From NCBI RefSeq assembly GCF_000372465.1, contig NZ_AQUZ01000003.1:186001-250000 (forward strand): a stretch of 64,000 bases of DNA, in the 5' to 3' direction. Positions 14,139-62,234 of this stretch are shown here, piece by piece; the first letter of the stretch is position 1, and each line of letters opens with the position of its first letter. This DNA comes from Kribbella catacumbae DSM 19601 (GTDB taxonomy: Bacteria; Actinomycetota; Actinomycetes; Propionibacteriales; Kribbellaceae). The position numbers and the translations under genes are program-made. The notes under the pieces are model-generated. The model was not told where the DNA came from, ran no database searches, and saw only the letters and a list, made by a program, of their open reading frames with translations.

Positions 14139-14356
14139 GTCACACCGTCGTGGCAGAGCTGGTGGCGAACGTCCAGTCGGTCATCGCCAAGGCCGGGGAC
14201 ACGGTGGGGCCGGAGGACACCCTCGTCATCCTGGAGTCGATGAAGATGGAGATCCCGGTGCTCGCCGAGGTGGCCGGCACGATCAGTGAGATGAAGGTCG
14301 CCGCGGGTGAGGTCGTCCGCGACGGCGACCCCATCGCCGTGATCGAAGAAAACTAA
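14135..14356 (+). CDS. Stand-alone biotinyl/lipoyl-attachment domain protein (mini-BCCP)
   Basis: 73 residues comprising little more than one biotinyl domain. The attachment motif ESMKMEIP contains the lysine to be biotinylated, and flanking Gly/Val turns give the flattened beta-barrel. Actinobacteria encode similar 70-residue proteins (for example the mycobacterial TB7.3 family) near stress sigma loci; they may serve as acyl-CoA carboxylase carriers. No carboxylase subunit is in the window. GTG start overlapping the CGNR stop. Confidence 0.9.
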   Translation: MSHTVVAELVANVQSVIAKAGDTVGPEDTLVILESMKMEIPVLAEVAGTISEMKVAAGEVVRDGDPIAVIEEN

Positions 14357-14362
14357 TGCCTC

Positions 14363-14474
14363 GCGTCCTCCCACCTGATCATTCGCCCCCTTTTCACCCT
14401 CCTTGCGGGCTGTCCGATGCTGCGGGCAGGGCGGAGAGGGTGAAAAGGGGGCGAATGATCAGGTGGGAGGACGC
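14363..14474. repeat. Long palindromic repeat, copy 1
   Basis: Arms 14363-14401 and 14436-14474 are 39 bases each and perfectly complementary, around a 34-base apical region. The inner stem contains TCATTCGCCCC, one variable base (C here), then TTTTCACCC. Within the apex CTGTCC (14410) can pair with GGGCAG (14424). It lies between co-directional genes, after the mini-BCCP stop and just before the sigE promoter. The remaining sequence of the 306-base gap to sigE holds the promoter listed next and nothing else I recognise. Confidence 0.9.
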
Positions 14475-14516
14475 TCAACCAAAATGGCCGCTCGAGCGTC
14501 TTCATCAGTGAGAGCC

Positions 14517-14543: not shown

Positions 14544-14662
14544 GACTCGTCGTACTGGCATCCCAGGGTCGAACCAGGGTGTACCCGACGTGCGAAGAGG
14601 ACGGTGAACGCGGCACCATGGTGTTCTCACTCGTTGCCGAGCGGACCCAGGGAGGCGTTGCC

Positions 14663-36586: not shown

Positions 36587-36688
36587 CCACTACCTGTTCA
36601 TTCGCCCCTTTTTCACCCTCACCATCCAGCCGACAGCGCCGGGTTGTCGCCAACGAGGGTGAAAAAGGGGCGAATGAACAGGTAGTGG
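36587..36688. repeat. Long palindromic repeat, copy 2
   Basis: Arms 36587-36620 and 36655-36688, 34 bases each and perfectly complementary, with a 34-base apex in which CGACA (36631) pairs with TGTCG (36645). The core TCATTCGCCCC and TTTTCACCC is shared with the other copies; the base between is T here, compensated by A. It lies between the divergent starts of the cyclophilin and kinase genes, so it cannot be a shared terminator of those genes. Confidence 0.9.
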
Positions 36689-48532: not shown

Positions 48533-48620
48533 GCGATCATTCGCCCCGTTTTCACCCGCCCTGCATGTCGGCGACCACGGCGCAGGCTGGCGAGCGGGTG
48601 AAAACGGGGCGAATGATCGC
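48533..48620. repeat. Long palindromic repeat, copy 3
   Basis: Arms 48533-48559 and 48594-48620, 27 bases each and perfectly complementary, around a 34-base apex with CCTGC (48560) pairing GCAGG (48582). Core as in the other copies, with G as the variable base (compensated by C) and GC closing instead of TC. Lies between the convergent MaoC and fucosidase genes, where it could also terminate transcription. Confidence 0.9.
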
Positions 48621-62132: not shown

Positions 62133-62234
62133 TGTCCCGACCGACAGGACATAGTGCCGATTCTGGGGTCCGGCGGGTTGGCACTGAGCGTGACCTTTGG
62201 GCGTGGGTGTGACTATGTCCTGTCGGTCGGGACA
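62133..62234. terminator. Long hairpin between convergent phosphatase and TetR genes
   Basis: Perfectly complementary 23-base arms at 62133-62155 and 62212-62234 (containing GTCCCGACCGACAGGACATA and its complement) enclose 56 bases. The right arm encodes the last residues of the TetR protein and its stop codon. Sequence differs from the three-copy palindrome family. Confidence 0.8.

Follow-up and report, generated by a model that had tools for sequence, protein, structure and literature searches.

The closest known system to the palindromes described here is that of the REPINs, REP doublets that form a hairpin and are accompanied by a RAYT transposase in Pseudomonas fluorescens SBW25 (PMC3116915); the Kribbella palindromes are a variant of the interspersed-palindrome kind. 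As described for that strain, REPINs have conserved inverted ends, the invariant 16-mers of the GI class lying 71 bp apart; in the spacer, length and pairing outweigh sequence, and compensatory changes are common (PMC3116915). The GTAG- and CGTC-tagged REPs are reported as extragenic stem-loops of 20–40 bp, the dimers of which can form large hairpins, and the CGTC class is without a dedicated transposase; Actinobacteria, Kribbella and Streptomyces are unmentioned in the main text of that report (PMC3733652). Rickettsia palindromic elements (RPEs), as summarized in one account, are palindromes that likewise spread and, at about 150 bp, are comparable in size, and they enter genes in frame (PMC10969869). 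Template-switch homogenization of inverted repeats, in the form given in two accounts, could account for matched changes that reach the two arms through a single event, but it is a mutation mechanism, not an element, and leaves spread and conserved ends unexplained (PMC8604942, PMC8794818).

The window, the whole stretch of 64,000 nucleotides of Kribbella catacumbae DSM 19601 that was analysed, contains three long palindromes with the following features (window coordinates).

14363..14474, no strand: copy 1 palindrome, arms of 39 bp, apex of 34 nt
14379..14399, plus strand: left core arm of copy 1, TCATTCGCCCCCTTTTCACCC, with its mirror arm at 14438–14458
14402..14435, no strand: apex of copy 1, identical over 34 bases to that of another copy on contig C36
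36584..36691, no strand: copy 2 palindrome, perfect arms of 34 bp, apex of 34 nt, in a divergent gap
48533..48620, no strand: copy 3 palindrome, arms of 27 bp, apex of 34 nt, in a convergent gap

These are the top three inverted repeats within the 64-kb window. The inverted-repeat search placed the arms at 14363–14401/14436–14474 (39 bp), 36584–36620/36655–36691 (37 bp with one mismatch, of which 34 are perfect, at 36587–36688) and 48533–48559/48594–48620 (27 bp), with 34 nt between the arms in each case, so that the perfect arms of 39, 34 and 27 bp announced by a first-pass annotation of the sequence are present where it had put them. Its reading of the stem was likewise borne out: the inner part, TCATTCGCCCC-n-TTTTCACCC, is common to the three copies, the variable base is matched across the arms (C, T and G against G, A and C), and the closing pair switches in step (T-A or G-C). 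The left arm of copy 1 starts 6 bp after an apparent TAA stop (14354–14356, read directly), and an ORF judged by eye to be sigma-factor-like starts at 14579. Elsewhere in the window, at 62133–62234, a second type of palindrome has 23-bp arms and a 56-nt gap; part of its arm, GACAGGACATAGT, recurs in locus L179.

The genome containing the window (G000) is a 9.63-Mb draft in 151 contigs. A pattern search with the 18-base core arm found 43 inverted pairs in it, both core arms being exact, against none with the reversed pattern as control, and the window palindromes are therefore not due to chance. A covariance model, R1, was built from 47 copies, namely the 43 of G000 and 4 others taken from relatives. 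It scored copies 1, 2 and 3 at 105.6, 101.8 and 84.8 bits, matched at least 62 distinct G000 loci, as counted by hand among the matches listed, and detected the family in 6 of the 38 Kribbella genomes searched (E ≤ 1e-4); model R2 detected it in 3 of the 38. Searching at the level of the taxonomic family added no genome to these 38. The many loci found in G000 and its relatives with the covariance model, a check that the first-pass annotation had proposed, establish a defined element family.

A diverged variant, TCATTCGTCG[G/C]AATCCGCCCTC, forms 131 exact pairs in another genome, G031. The same pattern, in which only the ten outermost bases of each arm are specified, occurs as two pairs in G007 and one in G000; the remaining 35 genomes have none. 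As model R1 gave 9 strand-hits in G031 among the matches listed, compared with 131 pattern pairs, other diverged variants may be missed. In a wider contig database, a looser arm pair retrieved two loci, both from Kribbella sp. VKM Ac-2527, one of which (L183) has the sequence of a G007 locus (L105), so that G007 is probably this strain; the exact G000 arm had no match there, in a database that may omit the source genome and those closest to it. Positions 14340–14500 of the window matched no phage or plasmid. Thirteen viral stretches that fit a loose pattern were discarded as chance occurrences, since of 15 additional bases no more than 5 pair. Such a Kribbella element was described in none of the top literature matches, which does not prove the absence of a report.

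The family was also recovered in scans blind to its sequence. In unselected stretches of G031 (240 kb), four of the seven perfect inverted repeats with arms of at least 20 bases were family members, as were both of those found in G000 (200 kb). No family member was found in unselected stretches of G020 (200 kb), and 120 kb of G027 held no perfect inverted repeat with arms of 19 bases or more. When unselected stretches were searched with the models for decayed copies, G031 gave one weak match (L203) in addition to four strong ones; G000, the window included, gave five strong matches and no weak one. Such scarcity calls either for a rapid turnover of copies or for selection acting on each locus.

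The element is about 100 bp long and consists of two mirror-image arms, perfect over 22–39 bp, around an apex of most commonly 34 nt. Its length is constrained. With search patterns that left 30 bases of freedom in both genomes, the core span was 72–75 in 42 of the 43 G000 copies and 82 in the remaining one, and it was 78–82 in all 54 distinct copies read from G031, where the perfect arms measure 22–37 bp. An apex of exactly 34 bases, as first proposed, is thus correct for the three window copies and does not extend to the whole family. The outer stems had been considered unrelated; they instead share, in the 47 copies, a C-rich stretch followed by TG[A/T]TCA or CGTTCA. Likeness between these copies fades about 14–20 bp outside the core, and within-copy matching of the outer stems is at background by about 15 bp.

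Two alignments were examined, A1 with the 47 copies used for model R1 and A2 with the 54 G031 copies. Mean pairwise identity is 0.92 for the arms and 0.37 for the apices in A1, and 0.91 and 0.62 in A2, the arm values being biased upward by an exact-pattern search that selects intact core arms. The apices are varied yet related, 104 of 1081 pairs among the 47 copies exceeding the 99% shuffle level where 10.8 are expected. A small hairpin nested in each apex had been proposed from the window copies. In the 47 copies, folding of the apex is barely above chance (z −0.39, s.e. 0.18); the apices of the G031 variant do have an inner palindrome in common, close to GCGGACCkGTRCAGGTCmGC and next to an asymmetric loop. 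At locus L091 in G030, too, a long palindrome lies within the apex, CAGTCTGTCGG..CCGACAGACTG.

Exact half-sites without an exact partner were inspected at 21 fetched loci, a part of those listed. A decayed partner lies at the usual distance in nine, and a partner at another distance in six (three shorter and three longer); in the last six no partner was found within ±1.5 kb, L086 being cut by a contig end. A common sequence near GGCTCTCCTGACTGAyCCGTGGG adjoins or sits in the half-elements of L079, L086, L088 and L089, and by eye L086 may continue into a transposase gene. Family arms around shorter apices are seen in L081 (about 4 nt), L077 (17 nt) and L037. In G031, a CCCTTGTGACCAAGGG-like motif lies beside copies at L195, L227, L231, L250, L253 and L264, as assigned by eye.

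Changes in the two arms are coupled. In A1, 92.9% of 1598 cells are paired, and double-changed cells number 122, compared with 54.0 in shuffles (0 of 500); the excess is weaker when pairs with a double change are counted (13, with 10.9 in shuffles; 16 of 500). In A2, 199 cells are double-changed, compared with 81.7 in shuffles (0 of 500). At outward position 2 of the G031 copies, A and G are about equally common, and the two arms match within the copy in 54 of 54 cases, where a proportion of 0.49 is expected from other copies. Some G031 copies, at L280 (4254), L282 (10606) and L281 (1962), have altered core bases on both arms and were missed by the arm pattern. Coupling is clearest in one orthologous pair of copies, at L009 (G000) and L092 (G030), whose loci have 88.5% identity across 3.1 kb: one copy has T/A at the variable stem position where the other has G/C, both arms having changed. 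The outer stem of this pair points the other way, being perfect over 14 bp in L009 and over 10 bp in L092. As with the compensated stem changes noticed in the window, an inner-arm difference between copies of the family usually affects both arms of a copy. Many double changes are inherited within subfamilies, so that events are fewer than cells.

Strong covariation, as in A1 and A2, would usually evoke a structured RNA in which compensatory mutations are selected, and the asymmetric loop and conserved apex motif of the G031 copies are in keeping with this. The pattern of intermediates is not. Columns 11–34 of A2 comprise 24 pairs and 1296 cells, 540 of which are fixed by the search pattern; by our own sum they contain 66 double-changed and 3 unpaired cells, and not a single one-sided wobble. 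Wobble cells are found at the inner edge (3 in columns 35–36 of A2) and in the outermost seven columns (29 in A2 and 18 in A1). The uncoupled arm cells, counted without regard to the transcribed strand, show no excess of G-T over A-C, and only four of the nine pairs of the inner apex stem have double changes. Copies occur in all gene contexts. No Rfam family scored above cut-off for five loci; the 13 matches obtained were all to microRNA precursor families, below the gathering score, and were dismissed. The near-absence of wobble in the inner arms, together with the lack of an Rfam match above cut-off for these loci, makes a structured RNA highly improbable. Of the three natures suggested in the first-pass annotation, this one is disfavoured, while a REP- or MITE-like DNA element and palindrome correction are favoured.

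The arms would be kept alike at the DNA level, by hairpin-templated correction combined with selection on the ends. A mutation in one arm could be copied to the other by intrastrand template switching, as in quasi-palindrome correction. Simple correction does not account for everything. The ratio of coupled to uncoupled private changes is 1:3 and 1:2 in two G031 regions and 1:2 in G000, and these changes and the outer-stem wobble weigh against it. In addition, the palindrome inside the G031 apex is only 74.3% paired and has not stayed symmetric, which template switching alone would not predict.

The sites of the window copies are empty in related genomes. The element of copy 1 is absent from the orthologous gap in all eight relatives compared, where the gap measures 53–87 bp instead of about 159 in G000. 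For copy 2, both flanks could be aligned in seven of eight relatives, all of which lack the element; in three of them the alignment reaches the edges of the insert, with 37–47 bp in place of 122–130 in G000. For copy 3, four of twelve relatives align on both sides, again without the element, and the aligned flanks abut in G027. Model R1 found no match at the three window sites in any relative. Conversely, loci L003 and L066 have all 34 apex bases alike in flanks that diverge, as judged by eye, beyond about 14 bp outside the core. Absence of the window copies in relatives and the presence of same-apex copies in unrelated flanks indicate that the family probably moves.

The flanks provide one hint of how this may occur. 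At copy 1, the arrangement is GCGT-element-ACGC-TCAACC in G000, and GCGTTCAACC is found in five of the eight relatives. In this one case, GCGT/ACGC is possibly an inverted copy of the target end, or a chance match. A general inverted duplication of the target was rejected, as coupling is at background by about 15 bp and the extra bases of copy 1 are an exception.

Absence from orthologous sites would also be consistent with a MITE, an internally deleted derivative of a DNA transposon with the arms as terminal inverted repeats. Such an origin could explain that the arms bound other interiors, both in the short variants L077 and L081 and in a longer composite repeat with family arms, parts of which are matched by 19 G000 loci; by eye, its arms are roughly 200–450 bp apart in several loci, with further hairpins inside. 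The lack of a detectable direct target duplication speaks against it: the longest direct match averages 5.05 within and 4.92 between copies (z 0.8, 43 copies), in a test that leaves room for very short duplications. Nor was a parent transposon with these ends recognized, in what was not a systematic search, and the ends vary between copies yet match within a copy. A MITE is considered improbable. In L074, L082 and the composite-repeat loci of G000, homology extends past the arms, and at 1190–1320 of L082 another palindrome, with arms CCGCCACTCACAAACCTC, interrupts the composite repeat.

Gene contexts were determined with a crude gene caller of our own in 43 regions, 20 of which had been fetched for holding copies and one of which is the window. 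The 16 G000 copies with flanking genes comprise seven in convergent, five in divergent (including copy 2) and four in co-directional gaps, and the 32 G031 copies comprise 20 co-directional, 10 convergent and 2 divergent ones. An earlier count, made on 43 loci with only short flanking sequence, placed 20 in co-directional, 14 in convergent and 7 in divergent contexts and left 2 unassigned. Median distances from the core to the neighbouring 3′ end are 19 (G000) and 32.5 (G031), against 109.5 and 193 to the 5′ end.

This proximity to stop codons is what would be expected of bidirectional terminators, or hairpins stabilizing 3′ ends, selected by the host and alike in sequence because a protein reads it. 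The convergent or co-directional position of 30 of the 32 G031 copies, the very stable predicted fold of copy 1 and the scarcity of decayed copies in unselected stretches point in the same direction. On the other hand, inspection by eye of 47 and 54 copies revealed no T-run behind the stem on its 3′ side, the T- or C-rich tract being on the 5′ side. Five of 16 G000 copies, including copy 2, lie in divergent gaps, the window copies are missing from the relatives compared, and terminators need no common 20-base sequence like the one shared here. A terminator scan reported nothing near the three copies, but it allows loops of 3–8 and is blind to such a hairpin. A role in termination as the reason for the family is thus judged unlikely, and the earlier argument against a simple terminator stands on the divergent position of copy 2 and the relatives without the three copies. 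If the family is mobile, the sites behind stop codons would be tolerated insertion sites, and some copies may have acquired a role at transcript ends.

The candidate mobilizer of a REPIN-like family is a RAYT. The corresponding domain, Y1_Tnp (PF01797), had no match in G000 (as a draft of 151 contigs) or G031; among the 38 genomes it was matched in G007 only, a low-copy carrier. The TnpA_REP-like partner that the first-pass annotation had advised looking for is hence not found in the high-copy genomes. A gene lying between close copies was also considered as mobilizer and rejected: all 10 proteins encoded between closely spaced copies were scanned, none is a transposase, and three belong to no family.

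Compared with REPINs as described in SBW25, the Kribbella family is alike in its conserved inverted ends, length-conserved spacer, hairpin pairing, compensatory changes, extragenic location and high copy number (PMC3116915). The earlier statement that no described element has this plan must accordingly be amended, as REPINs, from that description, have nearly the same one. In contrast to REPINs with their RAYT, the high-copy Kribbella genomes G000 and G031 have no Y1_Tnp match, and a Kribbella arm alone does not fold as the REPs are described to do, the arms being paired with each other over 22–39 bp. In predicted folds of five typed lone arms and their complements, the G000 and G007 types were unpaired and the G031 types reached −1.4 to −2.3 kcal/mol. 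As both a RAYT and REP-type ends were sought and neither was found, the family is not classed as REPIN. The GTAG/CGTC REPs resemble it as short extragenic palindromes with large-hairpin dimers and a transposase-free CGTC class, but are reported as 20–40 bp stem-loops (PMC3733652), and the CGTC tag is present in the G031 arms and absent from the usual G000 arm. In contrast to RPEs, which enter genes in frame in the account cited (PMC10969869), 1 of 16 G000 copies and 0 of 32 G031 copies lie inside a called gene.

On balance, we favour the view that these palindromes of about 100 bp are non-autonomous, REPIN-like mobile elements of Kribbella, served by a mobilizer that recognizes their ends and subject to arm correction by template switching. 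The copies would spread through an activity recognizing the hairpin or its ends, other than a detectable Y1/RAYT transposase. The ends would be conserved because the mobilizer must recognize them, and the apex would mainly keep its length.

More tentatively, the family may represent a RAYT-independent class of mobile palindromes in Actinobacteria, with an enzyme that recognizes extended mirror-image ends and gauges the length of the apex, and arms that record template-switch correction. The family provides a REPIN-like population that lacks the transposase presumed to drive repeats of this kind. Between them, two genomes offer about 200 natural palindromes in which arm-to-arm copying can be told apart from selection on RNA structure. 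Covariation of this sort would otherwise be taken as proof of a structured RNA, and the Kribbella palindromes call for caution in drawing that inference.
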